From positions 1 through 21,092 of the IMG/VR virus record IMGVR_UViG_3300027659_000258: a stretch of DNA of 21,092 nt. One strand, given 5' to 3'. The notes below the pieces were generated by a model that saw only the letters and a list, made by a program, of their open reading frames with translations, was not told the DNA's origin and made no database searches. Source of the DNA: a virus. This document shows, piece after piece, positions 5,245 to 17,412 of this stretch. Positions within the stretch are counted from its first letter, which is position 1, and every line of letters starts with the position of its first letter. Both the position numbers and the translations under genes were made by a program.

Positions 5245-5454
5245 TCAACTCCAAATGTATTTAGTGAACATATAAAAGAAGAACCACACTATGGCGATTA
5301 GCGCGCAAAGGATGGCGAAGTCGCTGATCTGCGGCTCACGATAAGGGCCTGTGAAGATGTCTTCATTCACATAGTCTTTAGGCCATGCCTCTTGCATGGT
5401 GCGCGAAAACATTCGCACAGTTGGGTGGTTGTCATCAACTTCTTTTTGCATCAT
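5245..5454 (-). CDS. 69-residue protein with C-terminal membrane segment
   Basis: ATG at 5454 (a second ATG follows immediately), with AGGAG (5468-5464) 9 nt upstream. The first 45 residues are polar and probably cytoplasmic. Residues about 46-64 (FAILCALIAIVWFFFYMFT) form a tail anchor, leaving KYIWS at the end. The start overlaps the preceding stop (ATGA). Function unknown. Confidence 0.66.
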   Translation of the reverse strand: MMQKEVDDNHPTVRMFSRTMQEAWPKDYVNEDIFTGPYREPQISDFAILCALIAIVWFFFYMFTKYIWS

Positions 5455-5600
5455 TTGATTAAGCTCCTATAAGCGTTGAGCGCGTCTTTCAAATCATTCT
5501 GCAATTGCTCAATATAGTCCTGCTGCTGTTGCAACTTAGCGTACGATTCTTTGGCAAAGTTGGCTAGGTTTTCGTGGCTCCATGACTCGAACGTTGGCAT
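5451..5600 (-). CDS. 49-residue coiled-coil hypothetical protein
   Basis: ATG at 5600 with GGAG (5610-5607) 6 nt upstream, the Shine-Dalgarno overlapping the end of the zinc-ribbon gene. The product is almost entirely helical and Gln-rich (YAKLQQQQDYIEQLQNDLKD), fitting a small coiled coil. It ends by ATGA overlap with the 69-residue gene. Function unknown. Confidence 0.62.
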   Translation of the reverse strand: MPTFESWSHENLANFAKESYAKLQQQQDYIEQLQNDLKDALNAYRSLIK

Positions 5601-5602
5601 TG

Positions 5603-5830
5603 TTATCTCCAAAATCTTTTAAGGTTGTCGGTTGCAAATGTCTTTTGATACTCAGTTTCTTTGGGTGTGGTTAACCTGTTCTTCTGAGGCAAGGCGCCTG
5701 CGAATACTTCTTCTTTGGTTTTGAATATACAAAAACAAAGTTTGCAATATCTGCGGCGGTAAGTAAACTCTTCATTTTGAATTGTCTCTGTAATGGCAAT
5801 CTTGTCGCCTTCGCACTTGGGACACTTCAT
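5603..5830 (-). CDS. Small zinc-ribbon protein (NrdR-type Cys pattern)
   Basis: 75 residues. Cys3-x2-Cys6 and Cys29-x2-Cys32 with 22 residues between, preceded by RRRY, give a zinc-ribbon resembling the N-terminal zinc domain of NrdR, but there is no ATP-cone domain. AGGAGG (5846-5841) is 10 nt upstream and the start overlaps the previous stop (ATGA). Zinc ribbons of this size in phages often act as nucleic-acid-binding or transcription-modifying factors; the target here is unknown. The C-terminal half is basic and polar. Confidence 0.7.
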   Translation of the reverse strand: MKCPKCEGDKIAITETIQNEEFTYRRRYCKLCFCIFKTKEEVFAGALPQKNRLTTPKETEYQKTFATDNLKRFWR

Positions 5831-6018
5831 GGGCGTCTTGCCTCCTGCAATATCTCGATGCGCTCGCGTGCAGCGCGCAAGGTTGTATAGCGCTGGTGCA
5901 GCCGCTCTAGGACGGCCACACGTTTGCCAACTTCGCGTTCGTCGGTCAACATCTCCAGCACCTTGACTTCATCCAAGGTCCTAAGTTCAGCGTTTAATTT
6001 TCGCCAGGTAAGTGTCAA
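5827..6018 (-). CDS. 63-residue charged helical protein, TTG start
   Basis: The start is TTG at 6018 with GGAG 7 nt upstream (complement of CTCC at 6026-6029); no ATG is available near the N-terminus. The sequence is rich in Arg, Glu and Leu (about 30 percent charged), likely a helical hairpin. It overlaps the preceding 55-residue gene by 32 nt in another frame and the zinc-ribbon gene by 4 nt. No recognised family. Confidence 0.6.
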   Translation of the reverse strand: MTLTWRKLNAELRTLDEVKVLEMLTDEREVGKRVAVLERLHQRYTTLRAARERIEILQEARRP

Positions 6019-6154
6019 TTTTTGTCTCCAGTTTAGTGATTGTGTTTAGGGTTTTTACTAATGTTCGATTGGCGGCGTTAGCGTCTTTCTGATGTATTTT
6101 TAAGATGGACCGCGCGGCTTTAAGCTGCGCTTTCCACAGGTTTAGTCTAGTCAT
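5987..6154 (-). CDS. 55-residue basic helical hypothetical protein
   Basis: The frame is open upstream to 6211, inside the helicase gene, but ATG at 6154 is the convincing start. GGAGG lies 7 nt upstream and the ATG overlaps the helicase stop (ATGA). The product (MTRLNLWKAQLKAARSILKI...) is rich in Lys, Arg, Asn and Thr with helical periodicity and no Cys. A small nucleic-acid-binding protein is possible from its charge; function unknown. Confidence 0.6.
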   Translation of the reverse strand: MTRLNLWKAQLKAARSILKIHQKDANAANRTLVKTLNTITKLETKIDTYLAKIKR

Positions 6155-7446
6155 TTCAATTCCTCCATTGCGATATCTGACAAGGCACGCTTGTCGTGTA
6201 GCGCTGCCCAAATCTTCTCATCTACTGTTTTATTAGAAATCATTACGTAGCACCACACGTCATGCCGCTGGCCGCTACGATGCAGACGCCCGATTGTTTG
6301 TTCATACAGTTCGAGCGACCAGGGCAGGGACAAGAAGACGATTCGACTGCCGCCGTGCTGTAGGTTGAGCCCGTGGCCGGCTGACTTGGGGTGGACCAAA
6401 AGAAGTTCGACGCTTCCAGCATTCCATCGTTCAATAGCGCGGTCGTCGTCAAGGGTAACGGCTCTTGGGTATCTGCGTTTGAGTTCGGCCAACTCTTCTT
6501 TGTACGTGTACGCCACCAAAGTATTGGCATGTTGGTTTTCCTCCAGTAGTTCATCAAGCCGCTCAAATTTAGATGTGTCAAACCATACGGGTTTATCCGC
6601 ATATACAAAACCCGACGCCATTTGTTGCAGCTTGGCCGTCACGACGCCGGCGTTAACTGCAATCGCGCGGTCGTTGGGGAACTGCGCGACAAACTCAGTC
6701 TTCATGTCGTCATAGGGTTTACGATTAGTCAGGTTGCCGCGCACTTCAACTGTGTGCAGGGCCGGCAGTTTGTCTTTGTATTCGCCTGGCTCCAATACAA
6801 ACGTCGCCGGCTTGATACGCTCCATAACCAAAGCCAAGGCGCCAGGGCGCGGCTGCCAATCGTTGTACTCGCGGTTGATTAACGCAAAGTACTGCTGCAT
6901 GAACGCGCCCTTGGCACGGCCAAGCAGATTCTGGTCGACGATCTTGCACTGGCCAAAGACGTCCTCTAAGCCGTTGCTAGTAAAACTGCCGGTAAGCCCC
7001 CAGCGGATCACCATGGGCTCGATGACTTTGTTGAGCGCCTTAAACCGCGCGCCTGATGGATTCTTTAGCCGTGTAAGTTCATCAAACACAATGGCGTCAA
7101 AATCAAGTTCTTGTTCAGCCAGCCACTGCAGGTTGTCGTAGTTAGTCACGACAATGCGCGCGCTAGACGCTAGCGCTGCTAGACGTTCTTTGGGTGAGCC
7201 TACGGCCACAGCGATTTCATGGAACGGCGCCCATTTAGGCTGCTCCACAGGCCACACGTCAGTGCAAACGCGTTTAGGCGCCAGCACTAGAAAGCGCCCG
7301 ACCTCTTCATTAAAAAGCATGTCTTGCATAGCCGTTAGGGTGATGGCAGTTTTGCCAGCCCCTACCGGCGCCAAGATCATGGCGCGGTCGCGCTCATACA
7401 GAAAGTCAGCCGCCTCAATTTGATACGGCCTCAATGATCCAACCAT
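6151..7446 (-). CDS. SNF2-type superfamily 2 helicase/ATPase
   Basis: 431 residues. Motif I is APVGAGKT (26-33, Lys32). Motif II is DELT (122-125) with the SNF2-like continuation RLKNPSGARF. Motif III-like GLTGSFTSN follows, then a C-terminal RecA-like domain with GHGLNLQHG and motif VI QTIGRLHRSGQ (383-393) carrying the arginine fingers. Short SNF2-like ATPases of this kind are common in phage replication or recombination modules and are thought to translocate on DNA. AAGGAG lies 7 nt before ATG 7446. The gene overlaps the end of the VRR-NUC gene by 32 nt. The two probably work on the same DNA substrates, such as branched or host DNA, which is inferred from their pairing. Confidence 0.9.
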   Translation of the reverse strand: MVGSLRPYQIEAADFLYERDRAMILAPVGAGKTAITLTAMQDMLFNEEVGRFLVLAPKRVCTDVWPVEQPKWAPFHEIAVAVGSPKERLAALASSARIVVTNYDNLQWLAEQELDFDAIVFDELTRLKNPSGARFKALNKVIEPMVIRWGLTGSFTSNGLEDVFGQCKIVDQNLLGRAKGAFMQQYFALINREYNDWQPRPGALALVMERIKPATFVLEPGEYKDKLPALHTVEVRGNLTNRKPYDDMKTEFVAQFPNDRAIAVNAGVVTAKLQQMASGFVYADKPVWFDTSKFERLDELLEENQHANTLVAYTYKEELAELKRRYPRAVTLDDDRAIERWNAGSVELLLVHPKSAGHGLNLQHGGSRIVFLSLPWSLELYEQTIGRLHRSGQRHDVWCYVMISNKTVDEKIWAALHDKRALSDIAMEELK

Positions 7447-9083: not shown

Positions 9084-9716
9084 ATGAGTTTAGTAACCTT
9101 CTCTAAAGCAAATCTCCCCGCAGTCAGTTCGTTGGCAACGTCGTTGCGAACAATCCAATCCGAAGTAGGCGCAGCCGGCGTTGTCATCTTAAAGATGGAC
9201 AAGACCGGTCACTGGGTATTCGGCGCGGATCAAACCGAAGTCGAAGACGACTCTCTGTGGGCCATCAATCCTTTCTCTTTTGTCCACGGCTTTATCGCCT
9301 GGGGCGACGGCGAAGTGCTTGGTGAGAAGATGGCCAGCGTAAGCCAGCCATTACCTGTATTGGATGAGGCCCCACCTCAAGCCAAGAAAGGTTGGGAGTC
9401 ACAAGTTGGCATGTCTTTGAAATGCATATCTGGTGACGACAAAGGAATGGAAGCGCGCTACACCACTACTTCGGTAGGCGGTAAGCGCTCAGTTCAAACG
9501 CTCGCAGTGGCATTGGCTGATCAGGTTGAAAAAGACCAGAACAAACCAGTGGCAGTTGTGCGTTTGAAGAAAGACCATTACGCGCATAAGTCCTATGGCA
9601 AAATCTACACGCCTGTGTTTGAGATTGTCGAATGGATTTCTATGGATGCAGATGCCACCGACGTAAAAGTCGAGGAAGAAGCGGAGCAACCTAAGCGTCG
9701 TCGTCGGGCTACCTGA
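9084..9716 (+). CDS. Uncharacterised replication-module protein, possible ssDNA-binding protein
   Basis: 210 residues, preceded by AAGGA. It has a conserved-looking core (VILKMDKTGHWVFGAD, WAINPFSFVHGFIAWGDGEVLG, SVGGKRSVQTLAVAL, HKSYGKIYTPVFEIVEWISM). The C-terminus is an acidic stretch (EVEEEAEQ) followed by a basic patch (PKRRRRAT). Its place between the Cas4-like nuclease and the DNA polymerase, together with the mixed beta-rich core, suggests a single-stranded DNA-binding or recombination-mediator role. That is inferred from context, since no OB-fold signature can be read directly. The stop overlaps the polymerase ATG by one base, so translation is coupled. Confidence 0.72.
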   Translation: MSLVTFSKANLPAVSSLATSLRTIQSEVGAAGVVILKMDKTGHWVFGADQTEVEDDSLWAINPFSFVHGFIAWGDGEVLGEKMASVSQPLPVLDEAPPQAKKGWESQVGMSLKCISGDDKGMEARYTTTSVGGKRSVQTLAVALADQVEKDQNKPVAVVRLKKDHYAHKSYGKIYTPVFEIVEWISMDADATDVKVEEEAEQPKRRRRAT

Positions 9717-11659
9717 TGACTCTTTGGGTTGATTTCGAGACCCGTAGCGCCTGCGACCTAAAAGCCGCAGGCGTTTACAACTACGCACAAGACGCGAGCA
9801 CCGATGTGCTTTGTATGTCTTATGCTTTTGATGATAGCGACGTGCAAACTTGGCTGCCAGATCAGCCATTTCCTGCCGCCGTAGCCCAGCACACCGGTTT
9901 GATCTGCGCCCACAACGCCGCGTTTGAGCGCCTGATCTTTTGGTACGTGCTACAAATGAATTTCAAGCTGGAGCAGTTCTACTGCACAGCAGCACAGGCC
10001 CGCGCCAATTGCGCGCCTGGCTCACTAGAAGACGTTGGCCGCTTTGCTGGCGCGTCTATGAAGAAGGATCATCGCGGCGCGCAGTTGATCCGCTTGCTGT
10101 CTATCCCGCAGGCCAATGGTTTATTCAGGCAAGACGCTACGCTTATGGCTGAGATGATCTCCTATTGTGAGCAAGACGTGCGCGCCATGCGTGCGGTCAG
10201 TCTAGGTATGCGGCCACTGAGCGAAGATGAGTTAGCCGACTATCACGTCAACGAACGTATTAACGATCGCGGCGTCATGGTGGATGTGCCGCTGTGCCAA
10301 GCTGCGGTCAAATTCGCCAGCGATGAAATGATCGAGATTGAGCAGATCGTGGCCGAAGTAACCGAAGGCGCGATCACTAGCGTGCGCTCTCCTAAGATGC
10401 GTCAATGGGTAATTGATCGTGTAGGCCCGCAGGCGCTAAAGCTGATGGAGTCGCATAAAGACGGCGAGAAAAAATATTCTATTGACAAAACAGTGCGGGC
10501 TAATTTGCTTGCGTTGGCAGAGGAGAACGATGATGAGATACCGCCCGCTGTTGCCGAGGTTATACAGTGCGCCGATGACCTATGGGCGTCGTCGGTTGCT
10601 AAGTTCAGCCGCCTTGCAGCGCTTGCAGATGAAGAAGACGCCCGCGTACGTGGTGCCTTCGTTTTCGCCGGTGGGTCAGCTACTGGCAGAGCGTCAAGCT
10701 ATGGAGCCCAAGTTCATAACTTCGCCCGTAAGTGCGCTGCCGAGCCCGACGCAGTCCGTAATGCAATGGTCAGAGGCCACACAATTGTCCCCAAGTACGG
10801 CGAACGCGTCACCGATGTTCTCAAAGGAATGCTCCGACCAGCACTCATACCCGCCTCCGGGAACCATTTGGTGGTTGCCGATTGGTCGGCGATAGAAGCA
10901 AGGGTAAATCCGTGGCTGTCTAACTGCTATGCCGGCGAACGCAAACTAGAAATCTTTGCTAAGGGCGAGGACGTTTACAAGGTCAACGCGGCCGCGACGT
11001 TTGGTGTGGCAGTCGATGCGGTAGACGATCATCAGCGCCAGATCGGTAAGGTGCAAGAGTTGGCCTGCGGCTTTGCCGGCAGCATTGGCGCCTTCGCGGC
11101 CATGGGCCGTATCTATAAAGTGTATTTGCCTGAGTCGGACGCCAGGCGCATGGTGGACGCATGGCGCAGAAATAATGCTTGGTCGGTGCCTTACTGGCAA
11201 AAGCTAGAAGAATCCTACACGCGTGCCATGCGAAACAAAGGCCATGAGTTCCCCGTTGGCCGCGTAACGTACATGTTCGATGGCCAGCACCTTTGGTACA
11301 TGTTGCCTTCCGGCCGTGTGCTTTGCTACCCGTACGCAAGACTAGAACAAGACGGGATAAGTTATGCCAAGGCGGCGTGGAAGCCTGCAGTAGATGCAAA
11401 AGAATGGCCGCGTGCAAGACTTTGGAAAGGGTTAGCGTGCGAGAATATCACCCAGGCCGTAGCCAATGATTTGTTGCGTCACGCCTTGCGCCAATTGGAT
11501 GATGTAGTGCTACATGTCCACGACGAAATCGTGCTAGAAAGCGCTGATCCAGTGGAAGCCGCCGCGAGGCTAGAGAAGGTAATGTGTACGCCGCCTGCCT
11601 GGGCCAAGGGTTTGCCCCTTGCTGCCGGTGTGTCGGTTATGACAAGATATGGAAAGTAA
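9716..11659 (+). CDS. polA: Family A DNA polymerase with 3'-5' exonuclease domain
   Basis: 647 residues. The N-terminal DnaQ-like exonuclease starts at once with Asp6-Phe-Glu8 (VDFETRS), followed by HNAAFE and a later YCEQDVRA. Polymerase motifs: A, Asp389-WSAIEA with Glu394; B, Arg441-QIG-Lys445-VQELACGF; C, HVHDE with His602, Asp603, Glu604. In motif B the residue at the position of E. coli Pol I Phe762 is Leu449, and the Tyr766 position is Phe453. This enzyme replicates the phage genome. There is no 5'-3' exonuclease domain. It has no Shine-Dalgarno and starts by a TGATG overlap. A strong hairpin terminator follows directly. Confidence 0.95.
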   Translation: MTLWVDFETRSACDLKAAGVYNYAQDASTDVLCMSYAFDDSDVQTWLPDQPFPAAVAQHTGLICAHNAAFERLIFWYVLQMNFKLEQFYCTAAQARANCAPGSLEDVGRFAGASMKKDHRGAQLIRLLSIPQANGLFRQDATLMAEMISYCEQDVRAMRAVSLGMRPLSEDELADYHVNERINDRGVMVDVPLCQAAVKFASDEMIEIEQIVAEVTEGAITSVRSPKMRQWVIDRVGPQALKLMESHKDGEKKYSIDKTVRANLLALAEENDDEIPPAVAEVIQCADDLWASSVAKFSRLAALADEEDARVRGAFVFAGGSATGRASSYGAQVHNFARKCAAEPDAVRNAMVRGHTIVPKYGERVTDVLKGMLRPALIPASGNHLVVADWSAIEARVNPWLSNCYAGERKLEIFAKGEDVYKVNAAATFGVAVDAVDDHQRQIGKVQELACGFAGSIGAFAAMGRIYKVYLPESDARRMVDAWRRNNAWSVPYWQKLEESYTRAMRNKGHEFPVGRVTYMFDGQHLWYMLPSGRVLCYPYARLEQDGISYAKAAWKPAVDAKEWPRARLWKGLACENITQAVANDLLRHALRQLDDVVLHVHDEIVLESADPVEAAARLEKVMCTPPAWAKGLPLAAGVSVMTRYGK

Positions 11660-11684
11660 AAAGCCGCCTTGCCGGGCGGCTTTT
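11659..11684 (+). terminator. Intrinsic terminator after the polymerase gene
   Basis: AAAAGCCGCC (11659-11668), loop TTGCCG, GGCGGCTTTT (11675-11684). This is a perfect GC-rich 6-bp stem flanked by complementary A and T runs, so it could work in both directions. The primase-helicase gene begins 20 nt later, suggesting either partial read-through or a separate promoter. Confidence 0.85.
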
Positions 11685-11703
11685 CTGTCAACAAGGAGAT
11701 GAC

Positions 11704-13971
11704 GTGGAGTTTTTAGATTATATCTGCAACCTAGCCCCAGAGGGCGAAACACCTTTAATAGTACGACAAAAACCACAGTTGAGAAACGGCGAAGTGCAGC
11801 TACACGCTGACGGCGCCATTGTCGCAACGTGGCCGTCGTATCTGCCGACCAAGCAAAAACCAAAAGAAGGCCAGGCGTGGTATGTGAACACTGGTAGCTT
11901 TATTGTCGACCGATTCAAAGACGGCAAAGTCAGTGCGTCCAAAGACAATATTGAGTTTGTACTTTGCCTAATGTTGGATGATATCGGGACCAAGTCCAAG
12001 GAGCCGCCACTAGCGCCGACGTGGAAGATCGAATCGTCGCCTGGTAATTTTCAGTGGGGCTACGCATTCAGTGAGCAGCCATCCAAGGCTGCGTTTGTCG
12101 CTGCGGTCGACGCAATCGCAGAGGCCGGCTACACCGACCCAGGCGCGCGCAATCCGGTTCGCAATTTTCGACTGCCCGGCTCTGTAAACCTGAAACCTAC
12201 GGCAGGCGGCTTTGTTAGCCGTTTAGTCGAATTTAATCCAGAGCGCGAGTACACGCTACAACAAATCTGCGACACTCTAGACGTCATCCCTAAACCGGAG
12301 CAAGGCGATACTTTACGCCCGATTAAGATGGCCGACGATGGCAACGACGACGTTTTACGTTGGCTATCGGATAACAGTTTGCTATTGTCAAAACCTAATG
12401 GGCTAGGCTGGGCCGGCGTCATTTGCCCTAACAGCGCGCAGCACAGCGACGGCAACCCAGAAGGTCGCTACATGCCGGCAACCCGTGCATATTGCTGCTA
12501 CCACGGCCACTGCCAAGAACTAAACTCGCACACGTTCCTAGAATGGGTGGCCGACAACGGCGGCCCTAAACATACGCCAGGGCTGCGCGAGGAACTCTTA
12601 ACCCAAGCTATGGATCAGGCGTTATCTAAACTCACGCCAACCGACATGTTCAAAGACGACGCTGCCGCGATCGTGGCTGAAACTGAACGCAAGGAACTAG
12701 GCCGCGTAGAAAAGTCTGAATGGTGGGACCGGTTTGCCTACATCCAAGAAGACGACGCCTATTTTGATATGCAGGACCGGCGCGAACTGGCGCGTGGCAC
12801 CTTCAACGCATTGTTTAGGCACATCGGTTGCAAGTCGGTCCACAACGGCCGCAAAATCGAGGCGTCTTATTCCTTTGACGAAAACCGGCAAACCAAAGGC
12901 GCCAAAGCGCTAGTTGGTATCACCTACGCCGCAGGGTCATCGGTGTTAGTTGTGCGCGATGGGCAAACCTACGGCAACCGCTGGCGAAATGCTAGGCCCA
13001 AACCTGTGCCAGGCGACGTTACCCCATGGCTGCGACACGTCGAGCGCATGGTGCCTGAAGCATTCGAGCGTGAGCACTTACTTAACGCGCTAGCTCACAA
13101 AGTCCAATTCCCTACGCACAAAATAAACCACGCGATCTTAATGGGCGGCAACCATGGATCGGGCAAGGATACATTATTCGCGCCGTTCTTTTGGGCCATC
13201 GGAGGCGAGGCCAAGCATAATTGCTCGCTAGTCAAAAACGAAGATTTAAACTCGCAGTGGGGCTACGCGCTTGAATGCGAAGTTATGGAAATAGCCGAGT
13301 TACGCCAAGCCGAAGCCAAGGACAGGCGCGCGCTAGAAAATACCCTAAAGCCAATCATCGCCGCGCCGCCTGAGCTACTGACAATCAACCGCAAGGGCTT
13401 GCATCCGTACTACGCCCTTAACCGGGTTTTTGTTGTCGCGTTTTCAAACGAACGCGTGGCAATCTCACTGCCAAGTGAAGATCGCCGGTGGTTTGTATTG
13501 TGGGCGGAGGCGTCAAAGCTAAACGAAGCGCAAGCCACGGCTTTGTGGAACTGGTACCAAAGGCAAGGCGGCTTTGCTGCAGTGTCTGATTATTTACACA
13601 AACGCGATGTAAGCGCCTGGAATCCATCGGCGCCGCCGCCAATGACCGAAGCCAAGGCCATAATGATCGAGCACGGCATGAGCACATCGGAGGCTTTTCT
13701 AGTCGATCTTATTCGCAGGCGTTCCGGTGAATTCGCGCGCGGCGTGGTCGGCGCGCCTTTTCATGGTCTATGCGACCGACTGCAGGGCCAGGCGCCAACT
13801 GGCGCCAAGATAGTGCAAGGCGCGTTACTACACGCGCTAAAAGAGGCCGGCTGGGTCGACATGGGCCGCATAAAGTCGCGCGAGCACGACAACCGAAAGC
13901 ATGTGTTTTGCGCGCCTGACATGGCCGGCATGTCAAAATCAGAACTGCGGCGCATGGTAGAGGCCGCATAA
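11704..13971 (+). CDS. Primase-helicase fusion (AEP-type primase, zinc finger, SF3/D5-type helicase)
   Basis: The frame is open from 11584, but the real start is GTG 11704 with AAGGAG (11693-11698) 5 nt upstream, after the terminator, giving 755 residues. The N-terminal part looks like an archaeo-eukaryotic-type primase, with acidic LMLDDIG (Asp92/Asp93) and RNFRLPGSVNLK (153-164). A zinc-finger region has Cys241, His247 and CCYHGHC (264-270). The helicase has Walker A GGNHGSGKDT (481-490), Walker B-like EVMEIAEL, and NRVFVVAFSNE with a downstream SEDRRW arginine finger. Such fusions prime and unwind DNA at phage forks and pair here with the family A polymerase. A terminator follows the stop. 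Confidence 0.9.
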   Translation: MEFLDYICNLAPEGETPLIVRQKPQLRNGEVQLHADGAIVATWPSYLPTKQKPKEGQAWYVNTGSFIVDRFKDGKVSASKDNIEFVLCLMLDDIGTKSKEPPLAPTWKIESSPGNFQWGYAFSEQPSKAAFVAAVDAIAEAGYTDPGARNPVRNFRLPGSVNLKPTAGGFVSRLVEFNPEREYTLQQICDTLDVIPKPEQGDTLRPIKMADDGNDDVLRWLSDNSLLLSKPNGLGWAGVICPNSAQHSDGNPEGRYMPATRAYCCYHGHCQELNSHTFLEWVADNGGPKHTPGLREELLTQAMDQALSKLTPTDMFKDDAAAIVAETERKELGRVEKSEWWDRFAYIQEDDAYFDMQDRRELARGTFNALFRHIGCKSVHNGRKIEASYSFDENRQTKGAKALVGITYAAGSSVLVVRDGQTYGNRWRNARPKPVPGDVTPWLRHVERMVPEAFEREHLLNALAHKVQFPTHKINHAILMGGNHGSGKDTLFAPFFWAIGGEAKHNCSLVKNEDLNSQWGYALECEVMEIAELRQAEAKDRRALENTLKPIIAAPPELLTINRKGLHPYYALNRVFVVAFSNERVAISLPSEDRRWFVLWAEASKLNEAQATALWNWYQRQGGFAAVSDYLHKRDVSAWNPSAPPPMTEAKAIMIEHGMSTSEAFLVDLIRRRSGEFARGVVGAPFHGLCDRLQGQAPTGAKIVQGALLHALKEAGWVDMGRIKSREHDNRKHVFCAPDMAGMSKSELRRMVEAA

Positions 13972-15698: not shown

Positions 15699-16358
15699 CT
15701 AGGCGGCCAGCTTGATATCTATCACGCGCTTTCGCGTGCCGTGGGCAGGAAAGCCGACAATGGCCGCGCGTTGTCGCTGGCACAATTGGCAGCTTGCACA
15801 TGTCACGTCGTCGCGTTGTGTGGCCGGGCATATGACAACCGGCCGACCGGCCGGCGTCATTGTGTTTTTGGTTTGCGTGCTAGGCAGCACGACGACGACC
15901 GGACCGGCCGCGTGGTCGGCGAGCCGGTCGGCGTCGTGTAGGTCATTGGCCGATAAGTTAACTGTAAAGCCCCAAGCATTGGCGTGGCGTATCCAATTAA
16001 TCGACGCGGCGTCGCGGTGGTGCGTGTAGGTAAAGCCGCGCCGGCCAGCATTGGCCGCGACCAGCTGGCCGAGCTTGGCGGCGTCGATTGTCGCGCCGGC
16101 TTTCGGCAGGTCCCCGGCCTGGTTATGCCGCCACAATTGGCCAGCCGGCAGCTGCGCGACCTGGTCGGTGAATGTGGCCCAGTCGGTGCCGCGTGTGCCG
16201 GCGCCGACGGCGCGCCAGTGCAGCGCGAGCGGGCCGCTGGCCGCGTAGCATTCGCGTTTTAGCTTGCAATCATCCGGGCAGCTATCGGGCTCAGTAGTTG
16301 AAACCGGTATCGGCCCGGTTTTTACATTCGCGCTTTTTAGGGTCATGTGTACTTGCAT
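15699..16358 (-). CDS. Cys-rich conserved-type phage protein of unknown function
   Basis: 219 residues from ATG 16358; an alternative ATG lies at 16346 (MTLKSANVKTG). The N-terminal Cys27-x3-Cys31-x5-Cys37-Tyr-Ala (ESD-like CPDDCKLKRECYAASGPLAL) and the C-terminal Cys177, Cys187-x2-Cys190-x2-Cys193 clusters suggest two metal sites. Between them are NxSANDLHDADRLADH and a VVVVLP strand. I recognise this as a type seen repeatedly in phage genomes, with CPxxCxL...CYAxSGPL as its signature, but know of no assigned function. It has the TAAACGAAAGTAAA element 3 nt upstream and no Shine-Dalgarno. It is the largest gene of the leftward accessory cluster. Confidence 0.8.
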   Translation of the reverse strand: MQVHMTLKSANVKTGPIPVSTTEPDSCPDDCKLKRECYAASGPLALHWRAVGAGTRGTDWATFTDQVAQLPAGQLWRHNQAGDLPKAGATIDAAKLGQLVAANAGRRGFTYTHHRDAASINWIRHANAWGFTVNLSANDLHDADRLADHAAGPVVVVLPSTQTKNTMTPAGRPVVICPATQRDDVTCASCQLCQRQRAAIVGFPAHGTRKRVIDIKLAA

Positions 16359-16653: not shown

Positions 16654-16681
16654 ATTGTAAGGCTATTCCTTACATTGTCAA
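16654..16681 (-). promoter_or_regulatory. Leftward sigma70-type promoter
   Basis: On the minus strand: -35 TTGACA (16681-16676, perfect consensus), 16-nt spacer, -10 TACAAT (16659-16654, five of six). Predicted transcript start near 16647, giving a leader of about 47 nt to ATG 16600. This drives the accessory cluster 16600-13996. Confidence 0.78.
16656..16674. promoter_or_regulatory. Operator-like inverted repeat inside the leftward promoter
   Basis: TGTAAGG CTATT CCTTACA, a perfect 7-bp inverted repeat with a 5-nt centre. It fills the spacer and runs into the -10, where a bound dimer would block RNA polymerase. It is unrelated to the TGTGGGTC boxes nearby, so a second regulator is implied. 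Confidence 0.6.
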
Positions 16682-16711: not shown

Positions 16712-16767
16712 TTTGTGGGTCGCGTGTGGCCGCGTGTGGACCATGTTTTTAGGTGACATGACCCACA
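16712..16767. repeat. First inverted pair of TGTGGGTC boxes
   Basis: TTTGTGGGTC (16712-16721), followed by further TGTGG motifs at 16725 and 16735, is facing ACATGACCCACA (16756-16767). The second is identical to 12 bases of the boxes at 16927-16940. It lies between the leftward promoter and the AT-rich core. Confidence 0.65.
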
Positions 16768-16840
16768 CGCGGAGCCAATAAACATGCGGGTTTCAGCCTT
16801 TTGTGGGTCATGTGGACTATTATTTTATTTTATCCATGAA

Positions 16841-16863
16841 ATATATATATATATATATATATA
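16841..16863. repeat. (AT)11 dinucleotide tract
   Basis: Twenty-three bases of alternating A and T, preceded by TATTATTTTATTTTATCC. It is the most easily melted DNA in the window, placed between the inverted boxes. Confidence 0.95.
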
Positions 16864-16877
16864 GTAGTACTAGAGTA

Positions 16878-16889
16878 TACGTCGACGTA
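16878..16889. repeat. 12-bp perfect palindrome
   Basis: TACGTCGACGTA, self-complementary over 12 bp, with the 8-bp palindrome TAGTACTA at 16865-16872 close by. Possible protein-binding site within the hub; it could also be chance. Confidence 0.5.
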
Positions 16890-16930
16890 AATAAGCCGTG
16901 AGGGGCCAGCGATTAAAAAGTGATGGCCAC

Positions 16931-16959
16931 ATGACCCACATGACCCACAAATGTAGAAT
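16931..16959 (+). promoter_or_regulatory. Candidate promoter for the 68-residue regulator, overlapping the boxes
   Basis: -10 TAGAAT (16954-16959, five of six) with -35 ATGACC (16931-16936, four of six) at 17-nt spacing. The predicted start falls at about 16966, the A of the ATG, implying a leaderless message. The -35 is made of the 9-bp repeat, so any protein bound there would repress. Confidence 0.45.
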
Positions 16960-16965
16960 GCGGCC

Positions 16966-17172
16966 ATGGCACGACCTTGTAAGCCCGACACGAAAGAACT
17001 GCGACGATCGCTCACGACCGCGCAGCGCGCGATCATTCGCGCCGCCGGTGGTGGTGATCTTTCGCGCGGTTTTAATGAATTGATCGTTATCTATCACCAC
17101 CTACACACAATGGGCTACCGGCCAGGCATGCGGCCCGAAAATATCAAGATAGTGCAAAATTATGAGCTTTAG
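16966..17172 (+). CDS. 68-residue probable ribbon-helix-helix DNA-binding protein
   Basis: MARPCKPDTKELRRSLTTAQ followed by RAIIRAAGGGDLSRGFNELI and VIYHHLHTMGYRPG. The basic N-terminus, a short strand (RRSLTT), a helix, a GGGDLSRG turn and a second helix fit a ribbon-helix-helix fold, as in small phage and plasmid repressors. Such proteins bind short repeated operators as dimers. Two tandem 9-bp repeats end about 20 nt before its start. There is no Shine-Dalgarno, and the promoter geometry suggests a leaderless transcript. The gene has its own terminator, so it is a single-gene unit between the two arms. The fold is judged by eye only. Confidence 0.65.
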   Translation: MARPCKPDTKELRRSLTTAQRAIIRAAGGGDLSRGFNELIVIYHHLHTMGYRPGMRPENIKIVQNYEL

Positions 17173-17190: not shown

Positions 17191-17412
17191 CTATCGTGCA
17201 TTTGGCCTCCGGCTGGCCGCTGCCGGCCCGATCGCTGGCCAGTACATGGCGCGGTAGCTGGTCGCTGCCGGCGCCTGCCTGCCGGCCGCCTGGCCGGTTT
17301 CCTGCCGGTCCGAATTCGCTGGCCACATGGCCCACATGGCCCACATGGCGCGCCTGGCTGCCTGCCTGCAGCCGCTGGCCGTGCGGCGCCTGGCCGCCTG
17401 CCGTGCGGAATA
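17191..17412. other. GC-rich non-coding stretch ahead of the terminase genes
   Basis: About 220 bp with no believable gene on either strand. It is dense in CTGGCC and CCTGCC-type words; I count about eleven GGCC tetramers here. It contains the three tandem 9-bp repeats listed separately. Position just upstream of the terminase genes, and between a terminator and the next promoter, suits a packaging initiation site (cos or pac), an origin component or a regulatory spacer. Confidence 0.6.
17323..17349. repeat. Three exact tandem 9-bp repeats, CCACATGGC
   Basis: 17323-17331, 17332-17340 and 17341-17349, each CCACATGGC. They differ by one base from the CCACATGAC tandem repeats at 16927-16944, which suggests the same binding protein at both places. 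Confidence 0.8.

Follow-up and report, generated by a model that had tools for sequence, protein, structure and literature searches.

Short iterons that serve as origins, lie near a helicase gene and are bound by the C-terminal domain of the encoded protein are described for Cch2 and for the Rep proteins of SaPIs (PMC7581432), and in P4 it is a winged helix of the alpha protein that binds the repeats of the origin (PMC4234260). In SCCmec, the D5-type helicase Cch2 has a family A polymerase as partner, and its C-terminal domain binds three short direct repeats within a 23-bp block, the putative origin (PMC7581432). SaPIs combine multiple short iterons with a self-loading initiator helicase of the D5 family, to which a primase is fused in SaPI5 (PMC7581432). 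P4 alpha unites primase, SF3 helicase and C-terminal winged helix in one protein (PMC4234260). The primase-polymerase of NrS-1 is a phage-encoded primase plus SF3 helicase; the part of its description considered here reports no similarity of the Head and Tail regions to known folds and, in this differing from the locus treated here, describes no iterons (PMC7102993).

The DNA analysed here, called the window below, is a 21,092-base IMG/VR virus record. Its replication module consists of a DUF2800 exonuclease, a nucleotidyltransferase-family match, a family A DNA polymerase and a DUF5906 helicase-primase, so that a D5-type helicase is paired with a family A polymerase as in SCCmec. The other genes include an endolysin, an SNF2-type helicase and a VRR-NUC-like gene. 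A cluster of small leftward genes is followed by an intergenic hub and then by the small terminase (assigned by position), the large terminase and the portal. The hub lies 2.9 kb downstream of the helicase-primase gene, between divergent operons, and its non-coding DNA holds several short direct repeats. The features of the region are as follows.

9716-11659, forward strand: family A DNA polymerase, part of the replication module of the helicase-primase
11683-13971, forward strand: helicase-primase with DUF5906 and a RepB_primase-like N-terminus, the putative iteron-binding initiator
15699-16358, leftward: 219-aa gene of the DUF7227 family
16654-16681, reverse strand: leftward early promoter TTGACA-16-TACAAT, 11 of 12 positions matching
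16657-16673: palindrome GTAAGGctattCCTTAC in the spacer of that promoter, between -35 and -10
16714-16744, forward strand: degenerate iteron cluster TGTGGGTC-GCG-TGTGGCC-GCG-TGTGGACCA with a period of 10-11; relatives have forward boxes at the equivalent place
16756-16767, reverse strand: lone iteron ACATGACCCACA
16802-16815, forward strand: iteron pair TGTGGGTCA-TGTGG, which forms the left arm of the inverted arrays and is kept in relatives
16816-16926, no strand: AT-rich gap between the inverted arrays, 69% AT, with (AT)11 at 16841-16863; putative DNA-unwinding element
16908-16919, forward strand: conserved element AGCGATTAAAAA just 5' of the reverse array, an AGCGAYTnnAAA-like motif in many relatives
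16927-16949, reverse strand: main iteron array (CCACATGAC)2CCACA, which is TGTGGGTCATGTGGGTCATGTGG on the opposite strand, kept in relatives
16931-16959, forward strand: rightward promoter-like site ATGACC-17-TAGAAT, 9 of 12 positions matching, near chance level
16966-17172, forward strand: 68-aa protein, a small predicted regulator
17323-17349, reverse strand: second iteron array, three copies of CCACATGGC, flanked by the genes of the 68-aa protein and the small terminase

The repeat unit of the hub is a 9-bp iteron, TGTGGGTCA or, on the opposite strand, TGACCCACA, arranged head to tail; the forward pair at 16802-16815 accordingly amounts to about 1.5 units and the reverse array at 16927-16949 to 2.6 units. 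An earlier note on this DNA had described five boxes in the hub, and all five were recovered in position and orientation. Its copies are genuine, but the true repeat is the head-to-tail iteron rather than the box, and two forward boxes of degenerate sequence, at 16725 and 16735, had been missed. The view of an organised array rather than random repetition is upheld by the counts: five of the six occurrences of TGTGGGTC in the window fall inside the 240-bp hub, whereas dinucleotide shuffles yield a mean of 0.42 occurrences per whole window and at most one in any 260 bp. The statement that no comparable cluster exists elsewhere does not hold, as three exact copies of CCACATGGC form the array at 17323-17349. 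A 26-bp block there is 92% identical to the hub array, and this second array recurs about 397 bp from the first in close relatives.

The two arms of the hub form a perfect 16-bp inverted repeat (16800-16815 versus 16936-16951) around the gap, which is 111 bp long in the window. The same succession of forward pair, AT-rich gap of about 95 bp and reverse array is found in 25 of 38 clusters of relatives, while under the pattern used this simple layout is absent in the other 13. In the 25 clusters the gap has a mean AT content of 61%, against 45% for the whole contigs.

The array is conserved at the equivalent place: more than 100 contigs of related phages, most of them uncultured, carry it between a helicase-primase gene of the D5/NrS-1 type, which it follows at 1.4-4 kb, and the terminase genes, which it precedes. 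Exact matches to TGTGGGYCATGTGGGYCATGTGG were found in 21 viral loci, all of them relatives with the array at this place except for L016, whose match sits within an unrelated reading frame. A search with the primase alone returned 80 viral loci and two MAG contigs; the latter belong to a Rhodoferax bin and a beta-proteobacterial bin and are the two clues to the host. Two or more tandem 9-bp pairs (YNRYCnACA) are present in 66 of the 72 primase-fetched viral loci with at least 4 kb of downstream sequence, and in 19 of the 22 clusters formed from them at 93% identity. The boxes are not spread through the genomes at similar density: the hub holds 7.8 pairs per kb against 0.0135 per kb elsewhere in 40 primase clusters, a ratio that measures concentration and not prevalence because these clusters were chosen for having iterons. 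The location directly downstream of the helicase gene, a trait of SaPI and Cch2 origins, is thus missing here: SaPI origins directly follow rep, whereas the origin candidate of the window stands at a distance and between divergent operons, and its iteron sequence is also another one. An origin directly downstream of the helicase gene is not known to be required for P4.

The reciprocal search, with the array alone and a broader triple-iteron pattern (some loci overlap on one contig), found the primase in all but four of the loci having at least 4.1 kb of upstream sequence. The exceptions are L118, a coding repeat, L208 and L210, both in other contexts, and L202. The last is an unrelated element (5399-7004) with TGGTCCACA iterons, which start 115 bp after the end of its own D5_N/DUF5906/Pox_D5 helicase gene, and it is an independent example of the pairing of a D5-type helicase with iterons.

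Across the relatives, iteron flavours include TGACCCACA, TTGTCCACA, TTGCCCACA, TGGTCCACA, CTGCCAACA, TAGCCAACA and TAGCCGACA. L030 has the same layout with another iteron sequence, of the GACAATTAC type at 9-bp period. The more distant L215 (MW202483), with a primase 51% identical, carries CTACCAACA twice beside AT-rich DNA, together with the AGCGACT element, and the same 9-bp core was not seen in tandem in the distant relatives MW202496 and OP947166. With the hub as query, no nucleotide match was obtained among named phages, and an Rfam search returned nothing. Other repeat families occur in some of these phages. Hairpins of the form AAGTTAGT...ACTAACTT, in five to ten copies, lie just downstream of the reverse iterons in L042 (about 5798-6010) and are also present in L038, L046, L050, L057 and L061; the window does not have them. 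The Thiohalocapsa phage L218 (OP947166.1), which has a related primase region, carries 8-bp tandem arrays of TCGGGTTG and GGTTATCG near the ends of its record (1-24 and 42499-43351).

In family searches the helicase-primase has a match to DUF5906 and a weak one to RepB primase. A model of the C-terminal half of the protein (pLDDT 82) matches in fold the helicases of NrS-1, poxvirus D5, AsfvPrimPol and SaPI5 PriRep1 (7ola and 7pds for the SaPI protein), so that the replicon encodes a D5-like SF3 helicase. The closest solved helicase region, by sequence as well as by fold, is that of NrS-1; SaPI proteins were absent from the matches in the sequence search of solved structures with the helicase-primase. 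The model of the last 108 aa (pLDDT 89.5) shows helices with a beta wing after them and is, as a model, a confident one of winged-helix-like form. The same C-terminal domain ends NrS-1-like phage primases in a library of viral structures, while in a PDB search with the isolated domain the winged-helix matches were weak (best E 0.08). The predicted domain order recalls P4 alpha, from which the protein differs in its RepB-primase-like N-terminus, the P4 primase being of the TOPRIM type; the binding domain of P4 gave no match in the structure searches with the C-terminal domain. Cch2 differs in other respects: its iterons are 5 nt long (AAGTG) and follow the helicase gene directly, priming is due to a separate complex of polymerase and partner, and the element is staphylococcal and not a phage (PMC7581432).

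Iteron position 6 correlates with two residues of the wing, K731 and D736 of the 762-aa protein (K740 and D745 in a second numbering). Primases with K731 pair with C at position 6, and those of the non-C types have A, G or S at 731 and mostly Q at 736; in L030 the same residues have changed independently, to G and Q. Many columns outside the domain score equally well, and L117, L137, L151 and L010 break the strict rule. We regard the association as only suggestive, because it is confounded by ancestry within a single clade and has these exceptions. It raises the tentative and rather doubtful possibility of a phage-wide origin code, in which the 9-bp period and the inverted layout would be fixed while the iteron bases would drift with the wing residues of the fused helicase-primase.

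Phages with 97-98% identical primases carry different iteron flavours, and primase identity was rejected as the sole determinant of flavour. The primase sequence alone would not fix the flavour, unless that clade tolerates different bases at position 6. This failure of flavour to track primase identity is what speaks for another phage or host protein that would bind the array and act in partition, in the timing of replication or in recombination, as does the circumstance that the protein partner of the array is one we infer. We consider such a binder very unlikely, given that the primase is the consistent neighbour of the array and that no other gene was found to discriminate iteron types among the genomes with near-identical primases.

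The earlier note had offered two roles for the hub, a control centre for both transcription arms or a site of replication initiation, and the comparison favours the second. Neither of the two outcomes that the note had said would count against its reading was seen: the boxes do not occur at similar density throughout the genomes, and they are conserved in relatives. The array persists beside an exchanged, unrelated terminase and with or without the 68-aa gene. This independence, the conserved position, the inverted arrays around an AT-rich gap and the co-occurrence with a D5-type helicase-primase give initiation of replication good comparative support. A primary function in transcriptional control is not supported: no 68-aa protein was detected in many of the phages carrying the boxes, L030 has the protein together with different boxes, and the leftward promoter has its own palindrome, a candidate operator independent of the iterons.

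The transcriptional reading in its most specific form would make the boxes operators of the 68-aa protein, a ribbon-helix-helix-like and self-repressing regulator of the divergent arms. Tandem boxes are typical of regulators of this kind, the gene adjoins the array in close relatives, and the reverse array overlaps the -35 of its promoter-like site. Between the -10-like TAGAAT of this site and the ATG of the gene lie 6 nt (16954-16966), so that the transcript may be leaderless. The protein, however, has no family match in Pfam or PHROG, its gene is found in a minority of the loci with the array, and in many phages whose terminase is of the second type no relative of it was seen beside the array. 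L030 has a homolog with 76% identity and yet lacks TGTGGGTC boxes. Operators would be expected solely with their regulator and kept together with it; instead, boxes occur without the gene, and in L030 the gene occurs with other boxes. The 68-aa protein is therefore not the universal reader of the boxes, and its homologs were rejected as universal partners of the iterons; we hold the operator reading to be unlikely. In L030, four GACTATT-like repeats, 10-11 bp apart and distinct from its 9-bp iterons, occupy about 45 bp directly 5' of the ATG of the homolog (about 5955-6000), and these are a possible operator of that protein.

The iterons also resemble the DnaA boxes of bacterial oriC, being 9-bp units that end in CACA, and the array might be an origin whose 9-mers are read as DnaA-box-like sites by host DnaA or another host protein. 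Some relatives have TTGTCCACA or TTATCCACA, which equal the DnaA box or deviate from it by one mismatch, and the unrelated phage contigs L148, L174 and L210 have tandem arrays of the TTATCCACA type, with three boxes head to tail, in one case near a ParA-like gene. A distant relative, furthermore, encodes a DnaA domain IV protein: L215 (MW202483.1) has a stand-alone one (PF08299) in its leftward gene cluster at 7083-7379, and a weak match is seen in MW202496.1 at 28052-28519. None of the 30 IMG/VR records searched, the window and 29 contigs of relatives, encodes such a domain. The iterons themselves fail the consensus TTWTNCACA: TGACCCACA of the window differs from TTATCCACA at two positions, and many relatives have A, G or T at position 6, where the box needs C. 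Position 6 is thus variable and position 5 fixed, opposite to the DnaA consensus. Exact 9-bp packing head to tail, as in these arrays, is not typical of DnaA boxes, and an origin read by DnaA seems improbable to us.

Packaging sites can be arrays as well, and in most loci no more than about 1 kb separates the iterons from the small terminase gene downstream of them, as might be the case for a pac site read by the small terminase subunit. A pac site would be expected to change when the terminase is exchanged, but the iterons persist. Terminase sets of two kinds, with no match between them at E 1e-4, stand downstream of the same iterons, which argues against pac, and the array borders AT-rich DNA and lies outside terS. 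We consider a packaging function highly improbable.

We thus favour, as the likely explanation, that the hub is the replication origin of the phage and that its iterons are bound by the C-terminal domain of the helicase-primase. The binding protein, the activity as an origin and the order of events we infer from the iterons, their layout and conservation, the genomic partners and the predicted fold. The C-terminal domain would bind the 9-bp iterons and hexamers would load on both inverted arrays, upon which the AT-rich stretch between them would melt and the SF3 helicase would unwind outward. Primers would be made by the primase domain of the same protein and extended by the family A polymerase of the phage. 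A secondary effect on transcription is plausible, as the -35 of the rightward promoter-like site sits within the reverse array; for this reason binding of the initiator would probably dampen that promoter, and it may set the expression of the 68-aa gene.

An origin of this design is known from satellite elements (P4, SaPIs), and for this phage group it appears to be new, judging by the literature searched, in which nothing was found on the replication origin of the group. The hub provides a concrete origin candidate for a large phage group of which almost all members are known through metagenomes alone, and it would link tailed phages with NrS-1-like primases to the initiation mode of P4, SaPIs and SCC elements. 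The iteron variants and their matching primases form a natural series from which the specificity of D5-type initiators could be mapped. Should the origin code hold, related phages would possess mutually distinct and easily interchanged origin specificities.
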